Below, in pieces: positions 1-35,579 of a stretch of DNA of 50,836 nucleotides (positions are counted from its first letter, which is position 1; the number at the start of each line of letters is the position of its first letter). The stretch covers positions 1-50,836 of the forward strand of contig JAPLXV010000011.1 of assembly GCA_026395895.1 (NCBI GenBank). Reading direction: 5' to 3'. Under the pieces are notes generated by a model. It saw only the letters and a program-made list of their open reading frames with translations, searched no databases and was not told where the DNA came from. The DNA is from Candidatus Nomurabacteria bacterium (GTDB taxonomy: Bacteria > Patescibacteriota > Minisyncoccia > Phycocordibacterales > UBA9973). Position numbers and translations under genes: made by a program.

Positions 1-846
1 ACGGAAAAATCCACGATATAAATATGTTTTGAAACCAGTTTCTTTTGGTTTTGATTTTCTCATCATCACTTCCTGACATTGGTCAAAAAGTTTCTTTGTG
101 ATAATCGGTTCATGCTTGCCTTCATGAATTTCACCCCCATAACGCATGAGTCCGCAGAAAATGGGATTTCTAAGTATTTCGTGCATTACGGACACGGAAA
201 GTTCTTCACTTTTCATTGAGCGCAATCCAAGTTCTGTAACCATATCTCTAATTTGTCGGAGAGTATATTTACCACTTGCATATGCCTCGAACGCCTTCTT
301 GATGTATGGCGCGCGCTCGGGGTCGGGAATGATAATTTTCTTCTCGCTATCATTTAAATATCCCATCGGAGCGTTTCGAGGCCATATTCCTTCCTTTAAT
401 TTATTTCTATGCCCTCGCTTAATATTCTCCGACAAATTATCTACATAATACTTGGATTGCGAGAATGCGATTGAAAGCATGAACTTTCCCTGCGGTGTGG
501 GGTCAAACCAAAAAGTTGAAAATTTTAAGTCTTTGATCGTTCCGGTATCAACGAGATAGATGATTTTTCCTCCATCTACCGAGTTGCGAGCAAGTCTATC
601 TGGATGCCACGCCAAAATGCCAGATGCTTCACCTTTTTCCATTCGTTTCATCATCTCATTAAATACCGGACGACCTGGTATTTTGGCGGTCTGTTTTTCG
701 ACAAAGACATCTATGATTTCCAAACTTTCTTTTATCGCTAATTCTTTCAGTTCAGAAAGTTGATCTGAAATACTACGGACTTGTCTGTCTTTGTCGTCGG
801 TGGACTTGCGAGTATATATGAAAAACTTTTTGGTTTGATTATTCAT
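1..846 (-). CDS. Serine recombinase / resolvase-integrase family, partial (C-terminus beyond window edge)
   Basis: Reverse-strand frame open from ATG at 846 to window edge: MNNQTKKFFIYTRKSTDDKDRQVRSISDQLSELKELAIKESLEIIDVFVEKQTAKIPGRPVFNEMMKRMEKGEASGILAWHPDRLARNSVDGGKIIYLVD...; resolvase-type YTRKS nucleophile motif, LAWHPDRLARN motif, recombinase-domain region ending YLYRGFFR. Confidence 0.93.
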   Translation of the reverse strand, partial: MNNQTKKFFIYTRKSTDDKDRQVRSISDQLSELKELAIKESLEIIDVFVEKQTAKIPGRPVFNEMMKRMEKGEASGILAWHPDRLARNSVDGGKIIYLVDTGTIKDLKFSTFWFDPTPQGKFMLSIAFSQSKYYVDNLSENIKRGHRNKLKEGIWPRNAPMGYLNDSEKKIIIPDPERAPYIKKAFEAYASGKYTLRQIRDMVTELGLRSMKSEELSVSVMHEILRNPIFCGLMRYGGEIHEGKHEPIITKKLFDQCQEVMMRKSKPKETGFKTYLYRGFFR

Positions 847-852
847 AAAAAT

Positions 853-970
853 CCTAAAGGGCACCCCTGTGTACTCAATCTAGCTTGCGCCAAACTGACA
901 GTGATGCCCTTTAGGAATTACAATTTTAAAATTGCAACAAAAAAGGCGTAAGCTGTTCGATTGAGTACAC
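853..970. repeat. Overlapping inverted repeats in the leader of the serine recombinase (cctaaagggca 853-863 / tgccctttagg 905-915; gtgtactcaatc 869-880 / gattgagtacac 959-970)
   Basis: Perfect 11-bp and 12-bp inverted repeats read directly. Confidence 0.85.
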
Positions 971-1384: not shown

Positions 1385-1486
1385 GGGTTTGGGGAGGAAT
1401 GCGGGCGAATATATGTAAAATTAAGTTATCAACATAATGAACTTGCTATTTAGGTAAGGATATGATATCCTTATTATATATAAATT

Positions 1487-1717
1487 ATGGATACAAAAAT
1501 AAGTCAAAACAAAAGAGAGAGGTTTAAGAGGTTAGCATCAACTCGCACGAGTGAGGTGCTTAAAAGGATTAAGATACTTTCCAATTGTGCTAACCGCAGT
1601 GCTTACGATTATAGCGAGGAAGAGATATCTAAAATATTTTCTGCTATAGATAAAGCGGTGAAAGATTCAAAGTCGAAATTTTATTTTCCAAATAAGAAGA
1701 TTAATTTTAAATTATAA
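1487..1717 (+). CDS. Small hypothetical protein (76 aa), first ORF of accessory cassette
   Basis: ORF, close spacing (4 nt) to downstream GHKL gene. Confidence 0.6.
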   Translation: MDTKISQNKRERFKRLASTRTSEVLKRIKILSNCANRSAYDYSEEEISKIFSAIDKAVKDSKSKFYFPNKKINFKL

Positions 1718-1721
1718 TTTT

Positions 1722-3413
1722 ATGCCCATACAAGGTAATATCGCTCCTAGGATAATTCAATCAATTTCTGGTTTATACACTGATTCTAATCGTGTGTTAC
1801 TTGAATTTATAGATAACTCAATTGATAATGCTGAACAATATTTTGATTTTTCAAACAATAAATATTCAAGGCCGATTGAAATTAAATTAGAGATATTAGG
1901 GAATAATTATAAAGATGGTTTTGTAACTATTACTGACAATTGTGAAGGAATAACCGATTTAGAAAAAATTGTTATGGATTTCGGTAATTCTAGAAAAAGA
2001 GGGCAAGCTGAAACAAATGGTGAGTTTGGTTTCGGTATGTGTTCCTTCTTGGCTTGTTGTGAAAAATTAGAAATACTGACTAAAACCAAGAAAGATTATG
2101 CTGAAAAAATTACAATATTAAAAGAACATTTTAATGTTGATAAACATGAAGATTTTTTATTTTCCAATATAGAAAAAGTAAAATCTTTTCCTTATAAATC
2201 AGGAACTATAATTAAATTAAGTGGGTTCACTAAAAATAGTTGGAAAGATTTAAATATTGATTTTATAAAAAATGAAATAGAAAAACACTTTGAAATGCTT
2301 CTTAATAGAATTAATCTTGAAATTAAATTAAAAAATAAAAGTAAAGAATATTTATGCCAACCATTTGATTACTCAATTCATGAAGGAAAAGAGCTTGATG
2401 AGTTAGTATATGAAATTCCTGGATTGTCACAAAAGATAGAAAAACCAATCCATATTTTTTTAAAGGTAATAAAAGGAAAAGATCTAAATAAAAGACCAGT
2501 ATTTATTATAAAAGGCAGAAGAATTAATGAAATAAATGCAATAAAAGAATTTAAGTCTGATTTTAAGAATGATATATGGAACCATCCGAACATAACTGGT
2601 TATGTGGATTTAATTGACTATATAAAGCCAAATATTTCTAGACTTGGTTTCCGCCCTGAATCTAAAGAGGAAATAAAGGTGTTGTTTGATATTTTAATAT
2701 CAAAAGAACAACAAATCTTAGATTTAATAAAAGATACCAACGAAGAAACACAAGAAAAACATTACCAACAATTGGAAGATATTTTAAGTAAGGCATTATC
2801 TAAAATTGCACGAATAGATGCAATGAATTTTAGAACAGAATATTTTACTGGCAATGATGTTAAATTACAAGACGGTGCTATTGGTGTCGGTGATTCAATT
2901 TCCCCTCCATTGTCTACCGATCCCAATAAACCTAATTCGGGGATTAAAGATAATGAAATAAGAGGAGATAATCCTAACGATGAATTAGGTGGCAATAAAA
3001 ACTTAAATAAAGAAGTCGATAATCCTTTTGACGACAAAGAACCGCAGGGGTCAGAAAGAAAGAAAAGTGGCTTTAATATTAAAATATCTGACCTAGAACC
3101 AAACATTGATTCTGATACAGGGAAACAAATTAAATCACGCTTGCTTGGGAATACAATAGAAATTTTTAGAAAACATCCTGAATTTGAAAATAGAGTAGAG
3201 CATTTTCGTGGAGGTGAGCCCAAAATCAGTCAAAGATTAATAACTTATTTGGCTGGCGAAATAACGGTTCATTATAAGGATAAATACTACATGAAATCTG
3301 GGCAACCTGCATATGATAAAAAAATGTTTGCAAGCTTAGTTGAATCCATTTATCTTTTTGAAGATCTATTAAAAGATGCAGTTGGTAAAAATTTATCATC
3401 ATGGAACAGTTAA
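1722..3413 (+). CDS. GHKL (HSP90/MORC-like) ATPase-domain protein
   Basis: N-box LLEFIDNSIDNA, G1 box TDNCEGI, G2-like NGEFGFGMCSF; long polar linker and conserved-looking C-terminal domain. Confidence 0.8.
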   Translation: MPIQGNIAPRIIQSISGLYTDSNRVLLEFIDNSIDNAEQYFDFSNNKYSRPIEIKLEILGNNYKDGFVTITDNCEGITDLEKIVMDFGNSRKRGQAETNGEFGFGMCSFLACCEKLEILTKTKKDYAEKITILKEHFNVDKHEDFLFSNIEKVKSFPYKSGTIIKLSGFTKNSWKDLNIDFIKNEIEKHFEMLLNRINLEIKLKNKSKEYLCQPFDYSIHEGKELDELVYEIPGLSQKIEKPIHIFLKVIKGKDLNKRPVFIIKGRRINEINAIKEFKSDFKNDIWNHPNITGYVDLIDYIKPNISRLGFRPESKEEIKVLFDILISKEQQILDLIKDTNEETQEKHYQQLEDILSKALSKIARIDAMNFRTEYFTGNDVKLQDGAIGVGDSISPPLSTDPNKPNSGIKDNEIRGDNPNDELGGNKNLNKEVDNPFDDKEPQGSERKKSGFNIKISDLEPNIDSDTGKQIKSRLLGNTIEIFRKHPEFENRVEHFRGGEPKISQRLITYLAGEITVHYKDKYYMKSGQPAYDKKMFASLVESIYLFEDLLKDAVGKNLSSWNS

Positions 3414-4273
3414 ATATACAAAAACTTATCGATGGTATTTCGCCTCTGTATAACTCATATAAACAGACAAGCAGAAATATTAGTGGAACAAAAGCTCTAC
3501 AAATTATGTGGGAGATCGGAGATCTTCTAAAGAAAGCAATAGAAGTGTCTGGCGTTGCACCCCATAATTTATACAGGCAAATATATGGAAAAGCTGAAGG
3601 CAAAGAAAATATCACTCAGAAAAGTTATATTACAAGAGAGTTTTTGGGAAGATCTTATCGTATACGGAATATATTTAAAAACAAAGAAAATATTCAAAAA
3701 GATCTACCAAATCTAAAAAGTTTTATTTCTTTTAGAGAGGCTATGCCTTTCTTTGATAATGAAAAATATATATTAAAAGGAGAGGAAAAAGAAAAATTAC
3801 TATCTCTGTTAAATAGCGACTTAAGCCCCACCTCAGTTTTAGATAAAATTAAATTACTACAAAGTGAAAAAATAGGCAGAAAAAATCCAAGAAATCAGAA
3901 ACTGGATGAATTACAGCCACAGAAAGAAATATTTATAAATTTTTATAATTACCTATTTTATCTTATAAAAAACAACGATTATGAATCTGTGAAAAAAGAG
4001 TTTAAAGATGTTGATATTTCGATATTAAAAACAATATCCTCAAACACAAGTGCTTTGGCACAGGAAGGGGTTAAATACATAGAAATACCTGAATCAACTC
4101 TCGATACTCAATGGATTACCTATCTCAATATCTTGAATAGCTTCTCTACACAAATTAATGCAAAAGAAAGAAGAAGGTTTAGAAGACTTATACCACCAGA
4201 AAGAATCGTAAAATTAGCAGAAATGATACAAGCCCTTACTTCAGAGGATTCTTTTAAAAATTTTAAGAAATAA
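3401..4273 (+). CDS. Hypothetical protein; N-terminal segment weakly reminiscent of DUF1016_N-type (IMWEIGDLL ... FLGRSYRIRNIF)
   Basis: 290-aa ORF; overlaps stop of the GHKL gene by 13 nt (translational coupling). Confidence 0.7.
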   Translation: MEQLNIQKLIDGISPLYNSYKQTSRNISGTKALQIMWEIGDLLKKAIEVSGVAPHNLYRQIYGKAEGKENITQKSYITREFLGRSYRIRNIFKNKENIQKDLPNLKSFISFREAMPFFDNEKYILKGEEKEKLLSLLNSDLSPTSVLDKIKLLQSEKIGRKNPRNQKLDELQPQKEIFINFYNYLFYLIKNNDYESVKKEFKDVDISILKTISSNTSALAQEGVKYIEIPESTLDTQWITYLNILNSFSTQINAKERRRFRRLIPPERIVKLAEMIQALTSEDSFKNFKK

Positions 4274-4278
4274 ACGAG

Positions 4279-5805
4279 ATGGATATTCCTAATTTTGAGT
4301 TAAAAGCACAAGAAAACGATTTTCTTAAAATTAGAATTGAATCTCTCAATTTATGTACTCGAACAAAAAATGCTTTATTAAATGCGAATATCCGAACTAT
4401 TGGTGGTATTGTTAGAAAAACAGAATTCTCACTTTTAGATATTCAAGGGCTTGGAAGAAGTAGCCTTAAAGAGATTCAAATAAAACTTAAGGATCCAAAT
4501 ATACTTTTTTTGGTTTCTAACAATCTCGAAGAAAGTCACGATGAAATATCTCAAGATTCGAACTCTAACTTGCCATCTTTTGAAAAATATACATTAAAAA
4601 TACTTCCAGAAATTTCATTTAAAAATAGTAATACATTTGTTTTTGAAAATAAAAGTAAAGAAAATGATTTTTATAAAACCAGAATTGAATCTTTAGATTT
4701 TTCTGCACGAACCCGAAATGCTTTATTGAGCGCAAGAGTTCTTACTGTTGGTGGAATTTTGAGAAAAACAGAGTCCTCTCTACTTGAGATACGAGGTTTT
4801 GGTCTAAGGGGAATTCAGGAAATAAAAATAAAATTATCAAAATATAGAGGACTAATGAGTTTCTCCTTAGATGCAACCTCTAAAGAACAAACAGTGGAAG
4901 ATAGAGTGAAAGAGCATAATAACAAAATAGAAGTTCAAACAATAGAAGAAAAATATTTTGAGAAACAAGAAGAAAAGGAATTTATTTATGGAACAAAAAT
5001 AACCTCCCTGGAGATTGATAGAAAAATTGAAACGATCTTATTAAGTAATAACATATTTACAGTTGGTGATTTATTGAGTGAAGATTTAGAAGATATAAAA
5101 AAGAAATATTTTTTAAATGGTGAAGATACGAATTTTTTTGTAGATATATTTAACTATTTAATATCTAGAAATAAGCAGATTGAAGAAGAACAGGAAAAAC
5201 TTAGGAAGAAAGAAATTGAATTAATTGGCCGCTTAAATTATCAACTAGATAAAAAAAGGAGTCTTACTTCAAATGAATATATAAAAATAACCTCCAGAAA
5301 TCTAGGCATTTTTAATTTATTTAGAAAAGGTTTAACATTAGAACAAATAGGTAAAGAAAATAATGTTACAAGGGAAAGAGTAAGACAGGTTATAAAAAGT
5401 ACTTTAGACAAAATTGGTCTTGATTATGAAGAAGAGAAATCAAAAATTTATCTAGAAAGAAACGAGGCAAAACCTAAAAAAATTATTAAAGAAAAAAAAT
5501 GGGGAGCTAAAAAATATGATTTTTGTGTGGTTTGTAATACTAAAGAATTCTCTCATTCTAGAAATGGTATTTGTGAAAGATGTAATGGGGCTTTTAGCGG
5601 AGAAACAAGAGAAAAAATAATTTTATCTCACAATAACAAATGTGACAATTGTAATATAATAAGGAGTGAAAGTATTGAAAAATATAAACATGATCTTTTT
5701 ATCACAAAAGAACAGAAAGTTTTTTGTAAGATGTGTTTTTTATGGAAAACAGGTAAAAAACTTGGAGATTCTAGAAAAAATAAGTGGAGAATGTTTTATA
5801 AGTAA
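4279..5805 (+). CDS. Tandem RNA polymerase alpha-CTD-like domains + sigma-70 region 4-like HTH + C-terminal Cys-pair (zinc-binding) module
   Basis: Two alpha-CTD-like repeats (IRIESLNLCTRTKNALLNANIRTIGGIVRKTEFSLLDIQGLGRSSLKEIQIKL; TRIESLDFSARTRNALLSARVLTVGGILRKTESSLLEIRGFGLRGIQEIKIKL), a third degenerate one, sigma4-like GLTLEQIGKENNVTRERVRQVIKSTLDKIG, Cys pairs CVVC/CERC/CDNC/CKMC. Confidence 0.85.
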   Translation: MDIPNFELKAQENDFLKIRIESLNLCTRTKNALLNANIRTIGGIVRKTEFSLLDIQGLGRSSLKEIQIKLKDPNILFLVSNNLEESHDEISQDSNSNLPSFEKYTLKILPEISFKNSNTFVFENKSKENDFYKTRIESLDFSARTRNALLSARVLTVGGILRKTESSLLEIRGFGLRGIQEIKIKLSKYRGLMSFSLDATSKEQTVEDRVKEHNNKIEVQTIEEKYFEKQEEKEFIYGTKITSLEIDRKIETILLSNNIFTVGDLLSEDLEDIKKKYFLNGEDTNFFVDIFNYLISRNKQIEEEQEKLRKKEIELIGRLNYQLDKKRSLTSNEYIKITSRNLGIFNLFRKGLTLEQIGKENNVTRERVRQVIKSTLDKIGLDYEEEKSKIYLERNEAKPKKIIKEKKWGAKKYDFCVVCNTKEFSHSRNGICERCNGAFSGETREKIILSHNNKCDNCNIIRSESIEKYKHDLFITKEQKVFCKMCFLWKTGKKLGDSRKNKWRMFYK

Positions 5806-5830
5806 AAAAATTAAAACGTTGCTATATGTA

Positions 5831-7363
5831 ATGAAATTAAGTAATATCTCTAATATGCCTGTATATATTAAATCTATAAAACTTAAAGAATTTGAGGGAG
5901 CATTAGATCAAACATTGAATTTTGAAGACGGCTTAAATATCATCAGTGGTGAAAACGGAACTGGTAAAACAACAGCCCTAAGAAAAATTAAAGAATATGC
6001 AAACAATAATAATCCTGACCTGGTTCTTTTTTCAGATAATCCAGCAATAACCCAACTAAACCAATTAGGAGTCTATGCCCTTAGCCCAAAAAGAAATTCA
6101 GAAAAGAAGACCGTAGAAAGTATTTTCTCAATCCTTCGTTCTACTAGTAAAACGATGGATATTCAACTTGAACAGCAAAAAAATAGAGCAATTAATGATA
6201 ATACTTTTGAGGCATATCCTTCATTTGGAGAATTATTTATTTTATATTTTGATGAAAAATGCAAAGATGGAGGAGAACAAATTGCTAAGATGAATGAAGT
6301 GACAACAGAGTTTAATGAGCTAATTCAAAAAGTTTTCCCTGAATACTCATTTGTTTCTAATTGGGATAACATCTCTGGAAAACCTGACATAAAACTTAAA
6401 ATAAGTAATCGCTCTGCTCTTAGCTTAGAAAAACTTAGTTGTGGGCAACAAGAAGTTTTGTCTTTAATATTTAATATTTATACCTCAAAAGGAAAATACC
6501 AGATTTACTTAATTGATGAACCTGAAATACATCTAAACTGGAATCTGGAAAAAGGTTTATTTCAATTTTTGGATTGGTTTTGCATAAATCATAATAAGCA
6601 AATTATTACAGTTACCCATTCCCGGACTATTTTTGAAGAACAATTTTACGCAAAAGCAAAATTTCTAGTTTGGGATGATTTAACCATAAAATATCAAAGC
6701 GATATTTCTGGTGCTCAGCGCGAAGCAATAGTGGGAGAACTTGCAGCTACAATAAATATTGTTGCTCCAACTTCTAAAACTTTCTTTGTTGAAGACAAGA
6801 TGCATGAATTCGTTATTGATACTCTTGCTCAAAAACTAGGTAAGACAGTTTCAACAGTTAAGTGTGGAAATTCTCCAAATGTAAAAAGCTTCTATGGACT
6901 ATCAAAGGATAAGAGTAGTGCGTGGAGAGAAAATGGTTATTATGTGATTGATGGAGATAACGAGGGAAATCCTTTTCCGGGAGAATCAAGATTTATTCAC
7001 TTGAACAAGTATTCTATTGATTCATATTTATTTAATTTGGATTTACTTTCTGAGGTAGTTGGGAAGACAATTGAAATTATACAAAAAGAAATATTATCCG
7101 TAATGCAAACAAAAAAACTAAACATTTTTTCAAAAGGAAAGAACGCGAAATTTGGGCATGCCTTGATTGATAAAATGACATTTGATTATATAACTGAAGT
7201 CCATTTATCACTTTTAGATTGCACGGAAATTCTAGAAGGTTTTGCTCAACTACAAAATAAATCTTCACAAGATTTGTTTGCTGAATATATTGAAAAGGCA
7301 AACCAAAAAGGAATATTAAGTAATATTTTTGACTTAGAACTTATTAATGCAATAAATGCTTAA
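5831..7363 (+). CDS. OLD-family-like ABC-type ATPase with C-terminal TOPRIM domain
   Basis: Walker A SGENGTGKTT, signature LSCGQQE, Walker B IYLIDEPEIHL, H-loop VTHS, TOPRIM-like FFVEDKMHE and VIDGDNEGNP. Supplied ORF opens at 5666, but homologous-looking protein begins at 5831/5855. Confidence 0.85.
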   Translation: MKLSNISNMPVYIKSIKLKEFEGALDQTLNFEDGLNIISGENGTGKTTALRKIKEYANNNNPDLVLFSDNPAITQLNQLGVYALSPKRNSEKKTVESIFSILRSTSKTMDIQLEQQKNRAINDNTFEAYPSFGELFILYFDEKCKDGGEQIAKMNEVTTEFNELIQKVFPEYSFVSNWDNISGKPDIKLKISNRSALSLEKLSCGQQEVLSLIFNIYTSKGKYQIYLIDEPEIHLNWNLEKGLFQFLDWFCINHNKQIITVTHSRTIFEEQFYAKAKFLVWDDLTIKYQSDISGAQREAIVGELAATINIVAPTSKTFFVEDKMHEFVIDTLAQKLGKTVSTVKCGNSPNVKSFYGLSKDKSSAWRENGYYVIDGDNEGNPFPGESRFIHLNKYSIDSYLFNLDLLSEVVGKTIEIIQKEILSVMQTKKLNIFSKGKNAKFGHALIDKMTFDYITEVHLSLLDCTEILEGFAQLQNKSSQDLFAEYIEKANQKGILSNIFDLELINAINA

Positions 7364-7400
7364 AATTTTTATAGACAATTTATTTTAATTTAATAAATCT

Positions 7401-8132
7401 ATGTCAGACGACGAAAATTCAATCCAAAACTTAATTCCTGAAAAAAACTCTATTCCATCAAGCCTCCAAGAGCCTACCGAGCCTGCCCTTGAAAACACAG
7501 CACATTCTGAACCCTCGGAAGCACTTCCTGAGGCCCCAGAAAGCTCACCAAACGACTTTTCAGTAAAAAGTATAGATATACCACCCTCTGATTCTATCCT
7601 TTTAGAACAAGAAAACGAGCCAAAAACTGAAGAAAAATCAATGGAAAATGAACCTGTTCCCGAGCTAATTTCTGAGCCAATTCAAGTTTCTGAACCTATC
7701 CAAGCGATTGAATCTTCGGATTCGACAAGCTTACCACAAGCAACGGCTCAAATCCCGCCAAATGAGCCGTTAGCTCTTGAACCCGAGCTAATCAAACAAG
7801 AGCCGGTTTCTTCTTTGGGCTCGAACGAAGTGAAGCAAGAAATTAAACTCGAATCAGTTTCTATTCAAACTCCTGTAATCATTCTACCTAAAAATTCAAT
7901 TCGTGAATTACTCAACAAAGCAAAAAATGCAATTCAATTCCGAAAAAGAAAAAAGTTGAATAAAGTTATGTCTTTGTTTTTAAAAAAATCCAAAATTACG
8001 AATGACGAAGTTGAAAAGTTTCTACACATCTCGGATGCTACAGCTACCAGATATTTATCTCAACTTAAAAAAGAAGGAAAAATAAAACAAAACGGAAAAA
8101 CTGGAAAAGGAGTTTCGTATTCTAAAATTTAA
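7401..8132 (+). CDS. Pro/Glu/Ser-rich disordered N-terminus with C-terminal winged-helix domain
   Basis: Low-complexity acidic N-terminal ~160 aa; C-term NKVMSLFLKKSKITNDEVEKFLHISDATATRYLSQLKKEGKIKQNGKTGKGVSYSKI. Confidence 0.7.
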   Translation: MSDDENSIQNLIPEKNSIPSSLQEPTEPALENTAHSEPSEALPEAPESSPNDFSVKSIDIPPSDSILLEQENEPKTEEKSMENEPVPELISEPIQVSEPIQAIESSDSTSLPQATAQIPPNEPLALEPELIKQEPVSSLGSNEVKQEIKLESVSIQTPVIILPKNSIRELLNKAKNAIQFRKRKKLNKVMSLFLKKSKITNDEVEKFLHISDATATRYLSQLKKEGKIKQNGKTGKGVSYSKI

Positions 8133-8508: not shown

Positions 8509-9582
8509 TCAAGCATTTCGGTAGATTGTTTTGTGCTTCAACATCATCCAAATGATATTGACCATGTGTCTTTTGAGACAAACCAATGCTTGGTTCTTGC
8601 TCTTCCCCTCACTAATCTTTTTCTTGAAATATGTTCGAGCTTTGTCATTTCCCATTCTCGATATTTGTGACAGTGCCATTCTGTGAAATGCGCAATTCAG
8701 TCTTCTGTTTCCGCTTCGTGATTTAACATGACGATTTTTCTTGCCACTAGATCTTTCTCTTGGCGAACAGCCTGCATATTTAGAGAGTGCCCCGGGTGAA
8801 GTGAATCTGTTAATATCGCTAATCTCTCCGATGATGGTGCTTGCCACTACGAGTCCGCACCCACTTGCAGTCTGAATGGTGTAGCCACCAGCATCAAGCA
8901 GTATTTGCATATCTTTTTCTAATTCGTTCACTTCGTAATGAATATCAATCATTCTTCGTACTTTTCGTTTCAATGTTTTCAAGAGAAAAGTATCACACTT
9001 TGGTTTAGAAAGAGACCAGTATTTTAATGCTTTCAGTGTAAATGGATTTTTGTATTTTGTTTGATATTCCGTATTGTATATTCGATACAGAAGCATGTGC
9101 ACTTGATTCTTGAGCCGTGCTCTCTCAAGCACCAAATCTTCTCTGTCAATCGATATTTCCTTTAATTGCTTGGCTTTTTCACTTTCCTGCGATATTGTAT
9201 ATGCAAGGAGGCTGTCGATGGAATTCATCATGACTTTTGCCACCCCAAACGCATCCAGGGAATCGCTTTTCTCTGGATGCGTTGCATTTTGTCTCTGTCT
9301 GTCCACCAAAATACTCGGCACATGATATACCGGGTATTTTTCGTACAAGTATTCCGCTAAGCGCTCTCCATATCCTCGGACATCTTCGAGGCCAATGTAG
9401 GGTGAAAGAACACCACTGTGTTCTTTCACTTTCTCTTCCAATATTTTAAAATCATTCTTGTAATTACCGACCGTGATCTCAAAGAGCTTCTCTCCGTATG
9501 GAGAGACTCCGACTGCGGTATGGGTATCCTTGTGGACATCAATACCGACAAACAAGGTTCTCTGTTTTTCTTGTGTTGTCAT
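8509..9582 (-). CDS. IS110-family DEDD recombinase/transposase
   Basis: FVGIDVHKDTHTAVGV, YIGLEDVRGYGERLAEYL, KSDSLDAFGVAK and C-terminal Transposase_20-type region SGCGLVVASTIIGEI...PGALSKYAGCSPRERSSGKKN...GNRRLNCAFHRMA. Confidence 0.93.
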   Translation of the reverse strand: MTTQEKQRTLFVGIDVHKDTHTAVGVSPYGEKLFEITVGNYKNDFKILEEKVKEHSGVLSPYIGLEDVRGYGERLAEYLYEKYPVYHVPSILVDRQRQNATHPEKSDSLDAFGVAKVMMNSIDSLLAYTISQESEKAKQLKEISIDREDLVLERARLKNQVHMLLYRIYNTEYQTKYKNPFTLKALKYWSLSKPKCDTFLLKTLKRKVRRMIDIHYEVNELEKDMQILLDAGGYTIQTASGCGLVVASTIIGEISDINRFTSPGALSKYAGCSPRERSSGKKNRHVKSRSGNRRLNCAFHRMALSQISRMGNDKARTYFKKKISEGKSKNQALVCLKRHMVNIIWMMLKHKTIYRNA

Positions 9583-9642
9583 ATTTCTCTGTTAAAACTT
9601 GTAATCTCACTTTCGAGGGTGAGTGTGCAAGTCGGCTGAATC

Positions 9643-9832
9643 GCCAGTATGCGAGAGTCATGTTCCTTTCGGAGCGACTATCCGCTATCTGCTCATTGCC
9701 GTGCACAGAAGAGATGTGGAGCAATCCTCTGGTGGTCGTTTTCTGACCGAAGTCAAAGCGACAGCGAATGCCAATGCAATGCCACATCTCTTCTCTACAC
9801 TCTAATACAAGAGAGTATTCTCTCATACTGGC
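9643..9832 (-). ncRNA. Candidate IS110 bridge RNA in the transposase 5' non-coding region
   Basis: Nested long-range pairing: gccagtatg(c)gagag 9643-9657 / ctctcatactggc 9820-9832 and agaagagatgtgg 9707-9719 / ccacatctcttct 9782-9794, with an internal UUCG-capped hairpin on the minus strand. Confidence 0.5.
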
Positions 9833-9931
9833 TAATGCCGAGGGTGCAACCCTTAACTTTGCGTAATCACTAAAATATAAATATGGTATAATTTGCCCGA
9901 GACAATATTTTGAATTTTGATTTTGAGTTTT

Positions 9932-10136
9932 CTCCTGCGGGCAAAATTTGAAATCTCGCCAAAAAACCAAAGCCGAGGAAAATGGAAATCCTAATCCCCA
10001 AAATATTTGTTTCCATTTTCCGAGTCCGTTTTGAATTAGCACATTAGTCGAGCGTAGTGGAAATATTAAAATACATTAGCTTTAATCATTTGGATTCAGC
10101 TCGAAATAGTTTCGAACTTTGTCCAACATACACCGC
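9932..10136. repeat. Copy B of the ~205-bp inverted repeat, ending one base before the probable recG ATG
   Basis: See copy A 1125-1384. Confidence 0.93.
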
Positions 10137-12320
10137 ATGGGATTAGCTGACAGACTGGAAACAAAATTTCGTTTGGATGTAAATCAAAAAAAAGCTTTAA
10201 ACAAGTTAAATCTTTTTTCTGTGCATGATTTACTTTTTCACTTCCCTGTTCGATATAGCGATATGAGTGAAGTAAAACAAATAGCAGAATTGGTTGTCGG
10301 AGAAATAGCGACAGTCTGTGGAAAAATTTCAAAATTAAAAACTAAAAAAGGATTCCGTTCCAAAATCCCGATGGGCGAAGCAGAAATACAAGATCTATCA
10401 GGAAAAATAAAAATCACTTGGTTTTATCAGGCATATTTGGCAAAAATGATTCACGAAGGTGATAATATCAAACTTACTGGAAAAGTAACAGAGAGTAAAT
10501 ATGGCAGATATTTGGCAAACCCAGAATTTGAAAAAATTACAGAGATAGATTCTCCTGATAGTTTATTTAAGAAAAATGGCTCCGAAAACACTGGTTTTTC
10601 GTATCCTGTCTATCATGAAACCAGAGGCATAACTTCCAAATGGTTTTATCATGCCATAGAGAAAATATTAAGAGAAAAAACTTTAGATAATATAGAAGAT
10701 TATATTCCAGAAGATATTTTGAAAAAATATAATTTACCGACACTCAAAACATCTTTAATTTGGATTCATAAACCAAAAAATGCACGCGACGCAGAATCTG
10801 CCAGAAAAAGATTTGCTTTTGAAGAAGTTTTTTGTATTCAGCTAGAACGCCAGCATGACAAATTTGAATATAAAAAAAATAAATCTTTCCAAATTAAAAC
10901 AGAAAAAAAAGAAACTGAAGAATTTGTAAAACGTTTTCCTTTCACCCCGACTAATTCTCAAAAAAAATCTATCCAAACTATTTTAGAAGATATGGGAAAA
11001 AGTTTTCCAATGTCTAGATTGCTTGAAGGTGATGTCGGAAGCGGAAAAACTGCCGTAGCTGCCACTGCCGCATATACAGTGATAAACTCGGGGAAGGGCC
11101 GGCCTTCTCCAAAATCCGGAGAAAGTCGGCCCTTCCCCCTTAACCTACAAGTCGCTTATATGGCTCCAACTGAAATCCTAGCTGCTCAACATTTTGAGTC
11201 TTTTATACAGTATTTTAAACACTTACCAATCAATATAGGGCTCATTACTGGCTCTGGTTGTCGTAAATTCCCCTCTAAAGTGAATCCTGCTGGCTGGACC
11301 GACATTTCTCGCTCCCAACTTTTAAAATGGACAGCAGAGGGAATTATACCGATTCTGATAGGTACCCATGCTCTCATTCAAAAATCTGTAAAATTTAAAA
11401 ATTTGGCATTTGTGGTAATAGATGAACAACACAGATTTGGAACAGCTCAAAGAAGAAAATTAGTCCGCAAAGACAACATCGCTCCCCACTTACTTTCGAT
11501 GACAGCTACACCCATCCCTCGCACCCTTGCTCTCACCATTTACGGGGACTTAGATTTATCATTACTGGATGAAATGCCAGCCGGAAGAAAACAAATCATT
11601 ACGGAAATTATTACTCCAACCAAACGCGATGAAACTTATGAAAAAATCCGAGCAGAATTAAAAAATGGCAGACAACTTTATGTCATTTGCCCGAGAATCG
11701 AAGAGCCTGACCCAGCAAAAGAAATGGCTGTACAAGCTAAGTCAGCTATAGCTGAAGCCAAGCGTTTGAAAAAAGAAGTTTTTCGAGAATATGAAATCGG
11801 AGTACTTCATTCAAAAATGAGCAAAGAGAAAAAAGAAACAGTGATGAAAGATTTTGTAGATGGAAAAATAAATATTTTGTGTGCAACATCTGTGGTGGAA
11901 GTTGGAGTAAACGTTCAAAATGCAACTATCATCATTATTGAGGGAGCAGAAAGATTTGGTCTAGCCCAACTGCATCAACTCCGTGGGCGAGTAATTAGAA
12001 GTAATCATCAAGCATATTGTTATGTTTTTGCGGATGCTAAATCTCAAAAAACAACCGATAGGTTAAAAGCATTAAAAACTGCCAAAAATGGTTTTGAGTT
12101 AGCAGAATTAGATTTAACTCTACGTGGTTCTGGTGAACTCGGAGGCACAAAGCAATGGGGCATCTCAGACCTTGGGATGGAAGCAATAAAAAATATAAAA
12201 ATGGTAGAAGCCGCCCGCGCCGAAGCTATCCGCCTAATTTCCGAAGACCCTGAACTTAAAAAATATCCCCTATTAAAAAATAAAGTAAAAGAAAAAGCTG
12301 GAGAATTCCACTTCGAGTAA
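10137..12320 (+). CDS. recG: ATP-dependent DNA helicase RecG (start ATG 10137 or 10119)
   Basis: GDVGSGKT, MAPTEILAAQHF, DEQHRFGTAQRRKL, TATPIPRTLALTIYGDLDLS, VEVGVNVQNAT, GRVIRSNHQAYCYVF. Confidence 0.97.
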   Translation: MGLADRLETKFRLDVNQKKALNKLNLFSVHDLLFHFPVRYSDMSEVKQIAELVVGEIATVCGKISKLKTKKGFRSKIPMGEAEIQDLSGKIKITWFYQAYLAKMIHEGDNIKLTGKVTESKYGRYLANPEFEKITEIDSPDSLFKKNGSENTGFSYPVYHETRGITSKWFYHAIEKILREKTLDNIEDYIPEDILKKYNLPTLKTSLIWIHKPKNARDAESARKRFAFEEVFCIQLERQHDKFEYKKNKSFQIKTEKKETEEFVKRFPFTPTNSQKKSIQTILEDMGKSFPMSRLLEGDVGSGKTAVAATAAYTVINSGKGRPSPKSGESRPFPLNLQVAYMAPTEILAAQHFESFIQYFKHLPINIGLITGSGCRKFPSKVNPAGWTDISRSQLLKWTAEGIIPILIGTHALIQKSVKFKNLAFVVIDEQHRFGTAQRRKLVRKDNIAPHLLSMTATPIPRTLALTIYGDLDLSLLDEMPAGRKQIITEIITPTKRDETYEKIRAELKNGRQLYVICPRIEEPDPAKEMAVQAKSAIAEAKRLKKEVFREYEIGVLHSKMSKEKKETVMKDFVDGKINILCATSVVEVGVNVQNATIIIIEGAERFGLAQLHQLRGRVIRSNHQAYCYVFADAKSQKTTDRLKALKTAKNGFELAELDLTLRGSGELGGTKQWGISDLGMEAIKNIKMVEAARAEAIRLISEDPELKKYPLLKNKVKEKAGEFHFE

Positions 12321-34988: not shown

Positions 34989-35579
34989 TTAACTTGCGAG
35001 AACGGCAGACGGATTGTAGGAAACGAAGTCGCCGCCAAGCCAGAAGCTACCCCAGTCCCACTCGCCACCGTCCCAAGACAGAAAACGAACATAGAGGTCG
35101 CCAACCGAAACGCGGTAAATAGTTCCCCAGAAGAAGATGTATCGGGTATTACCATTTTCATCCTTTTTCCATTCGTCAGGAATAGCTTTAGGATTCGCTA
35201 GTAGATAATCCAATACATTTGCGTTTAGAACTTTTTTATTTTTTAATTCTTCACGCAATTTATTTCCTTCAATACTACTTCCACTCTTTTGCTTCTTAGA
35301 AAGATAGAAGCTTACCTTTGAGGCATCAAATTTGATAATGCCACCCTTTTGGTGTTCTTCAACTTTCCATCCACTTGGAATGAATGGGTCTGAATCACAA
35401 TCAATAGCGTGTTCGACTGCTTTGATTTCATGGGTGCCTTTTAGCACTCCGTAAACCAACTTCATTAGATTTTCGTCTTTTGAAAGATTGGCTATATCTT
35501 TGGGCTCATATCCAACTTTGGATGCGGTGATTGCAATTTCATGCATAAGCCCAACACCGAATTCACTTGAATTTGCCAT
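34989..35579 (-). CDS. Hypothetical protein with W/G/D-rich C-terminus resembling a DGR-type variable (CLec-like) target
   Basis: C-term YIFFWGTIYRVSVGDLYVRFLSWDGGEWDWGSFWLGGDFVSYNPSAVLAS, GC-rich, 32 of last 41 codons end in C/T. Confidence 0.6.
   Translation of the reverse strand: MANSSEFGVGLMHEIAITASKVGYEPKDIANLSKDENLMKLVYGVLKGTHEIKAVEHAIDCDSDPFIPSGWKVEEHQKGGIIKFDASKVSFYLSKKQKSGSSIEGNKLREELKNKKVLNANVLDYLLANPKAIPDEWKKDENGNTRYIFFWGTIYRVSVGDLYVRFLSWDGGEWDWGSFWLGGDFVSYNPSAVLAS

Follow-up and report, generated by a model that had tools for sequence, protein, structure and literature searches.

Do the five closely packed genes at the start of this window work together as one defense machine, and which part of such a machine would be new? 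In the window, which is the whole stretch of 50,836 nt that was analyzed, from a Patescibacteria-type genome of 672 kb, ORF calling gave five ORFs (A to E), tightly packed and all on the + strand, in the block 1487-7363. Genes A and B are separated by 4 nt, B and C overlap by 13 nt, C and D are 5 nt apart, and E follows D after 25 nt, a gap that assumes the ATG at 5831 as the start of E, the longest frame of which opens at GTG 5666. The encoded proteins comprise 76 (A), 563 (B), 290 (C), 508 (D) and 510 (E, counted from ATG 5831) amino acid residues. The GC content of the block is 0.26-0.35; the IS region next to it has 0.42-0.44, and the remaining sequence ~0.35. The co-directional order, the gaps and the AT-rich composition that an earlier note on this DNA had described were confirmed, together with the two mobile neighbors that it had named. 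Upstream, a serine recombinase gene (1..864, - strand; frame cut by the window edge) matched the serine recombinase of related loci at E 1e-82. Downstream of the block lies a putative IS110-type transposase ORF (8509-9582, - strand), named from its own sequence. A related serine recombinase was found near A in seven loci (L007, L018, L025, L059, L060, L063 and L069); it is a mobility gene and stands outside the machine.

Inverted repeats that match perfectly (1124-1384 and 9932-10137; arms of 120, 65 and 55 nt) bracket the whole 8.5-kb block, and the right arm overlaps the start of a recG-like ORF (10119). In the left arm (1231-1298), a 34-nt unit occurs twice in tandem, of which the right arm appears to carry one copy. 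These repeats could be marks of recombination or insertion, or an effect of the assembly. Gene F (7401-8132), with a low-complexity region and a winged HTH, has a homolog directly 3' of gene D in locus L005; it was rejected as a system member given that homologs were present in 13 of the 60 genomes sampled from the order, and it is probably an ordinary gene of the lineage. A 196-aa ORF of unrecognized type (34989-35579, - strand) was also observed within the ribosomal protein gene cluster.

No methylase, helicase or restriction genes were recognized in the block by ORF lists and Pfam, and no STAS domain was found in A to F by Pfam and NCBIfam. The set of genes A to E as a whole matched no system in PADLOC, Pfam or NCBIfam, in agreement with the earlier note, which had not recognized it as a named system.

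The GHKL ATPase and its partners

Gene B (1722..3413, + strand) encodes a GHKL (Bergerat-fold) ATPase, in which an Hsp90/MORC-like second domain is followed by a distinct C-terminal domain, as indicated by Pfam, the alignment and an AlphaFold model. The Pfam match was HATPase_c_3 (5.7e-11), and in the alignment of 14 homologs the N-box (28), G1 (72) and G2 (99) motifs were intact, with basic residues near 263. The AlphaFold model (mean pLDDT 73.8) gave Hsp90, MORC3/4 and SMCHD1 as the best PDB fold matches, over ~400 columns. Two features of MORC/paraMORC proteins, namely a GHKL domain with intact ATP-binding motifs and a second domain of the S5 type, were found in B, and the GHKL/MORC-like ATPase of the earlier note agrees with the Pfam and fold matches. 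No PADLOC hit was obtained for B, and a tblastn search of plasmids gave no match. The gene was present in 4 of the 247 genomes of the order.

When genome contigs were scanned with the B alignment, 15 loci were obtained. Genes A, B and C stood in this order in L005, L006, L007 (a contig that stops within C), L008, L009 and L012, and in L010 and L017 B-C was present but no A could be detected; the viral contig L025 also carries A-B-C. Type III mod and res genes lie behind A-B-C in L008, L009 and L012 and behind B-C in L010, and an MNT/HepT pair follows in L006. The A-B-C order is common to genomes labeled Patescibacteria, Thermodesulfovibrionales and Gastranaerophilales, and its presence in genomes labeled as several phyla excludes chance for A-B-C. 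A search based on C added one locus, L038, where (4635-7494) C is broken by stops, B is shortened and A is intact, i.e., a decaying copy. In L011, a B relative (10001) that lacks A and C is preceded by a DUF4325 STAS gene and by a short PIN-like ORF with no match (9385-9988).

Gene C (3401..4273, + strand) encodes a basic protein, the model of which was all-helical (pLDDT 85.5). It belongs to no Pfam family and had no PDB match, either by sequence or by fold (best E 1.2). The DUF1016-like partner proposed earlier was not borne out, since no DUF1016 was detected by Pfam, by PDB sequence or fold searches, or among seven to eight C homologs (E up to 5). The homologs of C lie directly 3' of B in 11 of 11 cases, a count that is biased because most of them were found through B. 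C was found in 2 of the 384 genomes of the class.

Gene D (4279..5805, + strand) encodes a protein with two RNAP alpha-CTD domains (Pfam RNA_pol_A_CTD, 3.4e-31, in two stretches) and a sigma-70 region 4 (Sigma70_r4, 7.6e-07), which agrees with the alpha-CTD/sigma4 fusion read earlier; to this was added a C-terminal region with four CxxC motifs that are likely zinc-binding. L036 and L037 were retrieved with D as the query, without recourse to A or B. Locus L036 reads A, a 207-aa protein, the GHKL gene and D, with Dcm (on the opposite strand) and Vsr behind them; the L037 contig begins inside the GHKL gene, and the reading frame ahead of D there matches the C-terminal end of the GHKL protein of L036. 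The D homolog of L005 contains alpha-CTD, Bac_DnaA_C and sigma r4 domains. Directly ahead of D lies either a GHKL gene or B-C in all four cases (the window, L005, L036 and L037), and sigma r4 and Bac_DnaA_C form the C-terminal part of the GHKL protein itself in L060 and L065. These two fusions and four adjacencies identify D as a dedicated GHKL partner, and the pairing of an RNAP-mimic protein with the GHKL ATPase, pointed out in the earlier note, is upheld by them. D is a probable DNA-targeting adaptor. Weak PADLOC matches of D to PglW and MzaA were also obtained; the PglW domain of BREX resembles alpha-CTD (PMC12839542), which is consistent with the former.

Gene E (5831..7363, + strand) encodes an ABC-type ATPase (Pfam AAA_15, 1.8e-16) with Walker A (40), signature (202) and Walker B (225) motifs, all intact. 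TOPRIM-like motifs (VED at 320, DGD at 374) follow, and the TOPRIM assignment is made from these motifs alone; the product is a probable nuclease effector. In PADLOC, E matched AriAB (6.7e-30), AriA (2.5e-21) and GajA (1.9e-14), and in the PDB it matched AriA (1.4e-07). Of the OLD-TOPRIM nuclease claimed earlier, the ATPase and the TOPRIM-like motifs therefore stand, whereas an OLD or Gabija identity was rejected given that the nearest named relatives are AriA/AriAB of PARIS. The C-terminal half searched separately gave no meaningful PDB match and no AriB, and no DUF4435 hit was found in Pfam. No E homologs were detected in 237 other genomes of the class, and tblastn gave no match in phages. 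E is also absent from L005, the closest relative, which has A-B-C-D only.

The earlier note had proposed co-occurrence in the same order elsewhere as a check on the cassette. The outcome was divided: A-B-C recurs and the D homologs keep their place, whereas E was found with A-D nowhere else, so that the exact five-gene set was seen only in this window among the loci examined. That all five genes form one machine is therefore a proposal, with the inclusion of E as its weakest link.

Gene A and the exchange of the genes behind it

Gene A (1487..1717, + strand) encodes a basic protein (pI 10.0) with a conserved -FKL end, and it stands as an operon leader before at least six GHKL ATPase groups. 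No significant family was found for it in Pfam, PADLOC or NCBIfam, no HTH was recognizable, and searches of PDB sequences and PHROGs were both uninformative. No description of gene A, or of the A-B-C-D-E set, was found in open-licence papers. Gene A is the most novel part of the operon.

The A profile matched 20 of the 335 genomes of the class, and in 18 of these 20 a GHKL gene is next or next-but-one after A; the exceptions are L072 and L075, the latter a partial match of 36 residues. On plasmids, a GHKL gene lies behind A in 9 of the 11 loci examined (exceptions L084 and L086), the frequencies outside Patescibacteria being based on plasmids and one genome-contig scan. Besides B, the A-linked GHKL proteins fell into five groups by BLAST at 1e-8 (six groups in all), and the N-box, G1 and G2 residues were conserved across all of them. 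Profile comparison supported a link of groups 1, 2 and 3 with B, and of group 0 with group 1. The comparisons of B with groups 0 and 4 were not significant; group 4 stayed unlinked, and its GHKL nature thus rests on the conserved motifs and weak Pfam hits. Neighbors of the A-GHKL pair in many loci are Dcm, Vsr, a second DNA methylase type, DUF6339 or restriction nucleases, and in two loci Gabija. The latter are an Agrobacterium plasmid (L079:6983-12288) and a Dinoroseobacter plasmid (L077:6986-13727), with one extra gene in between in the second; the Gabija genes were matched as GajA (E ~1e-220) and GajB (~1e-178).

A putative promoter/operator (1443..1473, + strand) was located upstream of A, with TTGCTA (1443-1448), a 17-bp spacer and TATCCT (1466-1471). 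A 19-bp palindrome, TAAGGATAT-g-ATATCCTTA (1455-1473), overlaps the putative -10, and its 17-bp core AAGGATATgATATCCTT is also present upstream of A in L060. Of 34 loci, 11 carry the half-site AAGGRTA/TAYCCTT in the 100 nt that precede A; among control ORFs it was found for 13 of 323, and shuffled sequences gave an expectation of 0.9. This counts as moderate evidence, because the motif was chosen after the window had been seen and because several of these 11 loci are closely related, with perhaps five independent lineages among them.

When loci of different GHKL groups were compared, DNA similarity was found to span A, in some pairs together with up to 90 nt upstream, and to stop at the A stop codon or within ~30 nt after it. 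In L062 and L065, the A proteins are 97% identical and the GHKL proteins come from different groups. On the A tree, the six GHKL labels need 14 changes, as against a least possible 5, and one well-supported branch contains three GHKL groups; well-supported branches are few because A is short. The boundary of similarity and the label changes argue that A, often with its promoter, stays in place while the downstream genes get replaced, and in these sequence comparisons the unit of promoter and A behaves as a portable leader. Since near-identical A proteins precede unrelated ATPases, we infer a common target of A, the simplest candidates being its own promoter or a host factor. We tentatively propose that A represents an undescribed operon-leader family dedicated to GHKL-ATPase immune systems. 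Its members would be basic proteins of 70-80 aa, usually with an -FKL tail and their own promoter, and would control or license GHKL ATPases of no fewer than six groups unlinked by BLAST, in Patescibacteria, Deinococcota, Actinomycetota, Bacillota and Alphaproteobacteria; some phage copies could interfere.

Stand-alone A homologs were observed in phage contigs L028, L029 and L030 and in 13 phage records, including Synechococcus phages, and in L029 the homolog is fused to a peptidase-like protein. A role as decoys, or an unrelated use, is possible for these phage copies.

A proposed defense operon and its alternatives

With moderate confidence, the block is read as a mobile, serine-recombinase-linked defense operon of the GHKL-ATPase (MORC/paraMORC-like) kind, in which the ATPase would control a nuclease. 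The earlier note had suggested a multi-component immune or transcription-surveillance system; its defense side is backed by the type III R-M, Dcm/Vsr, methylase and Gabija neighbors of the related loci, whereas its DUF1016 component falls away and E accompanies A-D only here. In the proposed mechanism, A, traveling with its own promoter, would most likely control the expression or licensing of the downstream genes. B would be a GHKL dimer, driven by ATP, whose probable action is to clamp DNA or to toggle its partners between inactive and active states, with C as a helical partner specific to it. The RNA polymerase/sigma-derived domains and the likely zinc-binding part of D would place B-C on DNA, perhaps transcribed or replicating DNA of an invader. 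E, as the effector of B, would then supply the cutting activity, in the slot that is held in related loci by type III R-M, type II R-M with Vsr, or Gabija.

The place of E is where this reading can most readily be divided. ATPase-TOPRIM immune genes can work singly or in pairs, and A-B-C-D might form an ATPase/DNA-binding system with its restriction genes absent or at another site, and E a separate PARIS/OLD-like immune gene beside it. The composition of L005, the lack of a close E relative in the class and the D-E gap, which exceeds the other gaps in the block, all favor such a division; E is nevertheless co-directional and only 25 nt behind D, and the A-GHKL pair of the plasmids also precedes an ATPase-TOPRIM system (Gabija). 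We regard two independent neighbors as possible but rather doubtful. A different division, in which A-B-C-D serves chiefly for control and turns on a downstream effector when infection or DNA damage is sensed, in the manner of CapK-CapS, would account for the exchange of effectors behind a conserved promoter and A, the transcription domains of D and the palindrome at the -10, and exchangeable operon control has a precedent in CapKS (PMC13373217). It appears unlikely, given that neither a STAS domain nor a CapS-like repressor was found in the window, that the best matches of B are Hsp90 and MORC proteins and not kinases, and that A has no recognizable HTH. The genes might also be mobile-element cargo that serves selfish or housekeeping ends (replication, partition or control of transposition) and has no part in immunity; a serine recombinase adjoins the block here and A in seven other loci, DnaA_C and sigma domains are present, and A homologs occur in cyanophages. 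The recurrence of restriction, Vsr and Gabija neighbors across unrelated hosts makes this very improbable.

If the defense reading holds, the shared leader and the sigma/DnaA/alpha-CTD partner would provide handles on how these ATPases find foreign DNA and are triggered on it. Gene A would serve as a marker for finding further such systems, and A together with the D-type partner would link R-M, Gabija and PARIS-like effectors. Patescibacteria are described in PMC6509639 as having small genomes in which CRISPR is rare, which would make a defense operon in this group relevant.

Comparison with known systems

GHKL ATPases in R-M operons, including those of type III, were described in 2008 by Iyer, Abhiman and Aravind (PMC2292703), and for this reason "categorically new" would be too strong a term for the block; the mechanism of such GHKL/MORC ATPases in bacterial restriction operons, known since then, has scarcely been worked out. 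Like the MORC and paraMORC1-5 families of that study, B combines a GHKL ATPase with a second alpha/beta domain, a patchy, mobile distribution and an association with type III R-M, DNA methylases and Vsr. Unlike them, the block lacks methylase and helicase genes but carries C, D and E, the R-M genes being found in the relatives L008, L009, L010 and L012. The text of PMC2292703 makes no mention of sigma, DnaA or a "small protein".

Among ATPase-nuclease systems, PARIS (AriA/AriB, or fused AriAB) is close to E, which is an AriA-type ABC ATPase with TOPRIM-like motifs and has AriAB as its top PADLOC match and AriA as its top PDB match; the match to E is however partial (residues 152-413), and four extra genes surround E. 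Gabija (GajA/GajB) likewise contains an ATPase-TOPRIM nuclease and follows the A-GHKL pairs of the plasmids, but no GajB UvrD-like helicase gene adjoins E in the ORF lists, and GajA matches E only at the level given above. In MZA (mzaABCDE), too, a MutL-type GHKL protein is accompanied by one of sigma type, and both D and the fused L065 protein match MzaA weakly, whereas B and C had no PADLOC hit and no Z1 or AIPR gene is present in the window. The A-linked GHKL protein of the Arthrobacter plasmid L082 is PDC-M33A (3.5e-82), of the PADLOC phage-defense candidate PDC-M33, although it belongs to another group than B, which does not match PDC-M33. In CapK-CapS and VapKSC (PMC13373217), a GHKL protein heads exchangeable immune operons, and the B relative of L011 adjoins a DUF4325 STAS gene and a PIN-like ORF; the window itself has no STAS gene, and B resembles MORC/Hsp90 and not an anti-sigma kinase.
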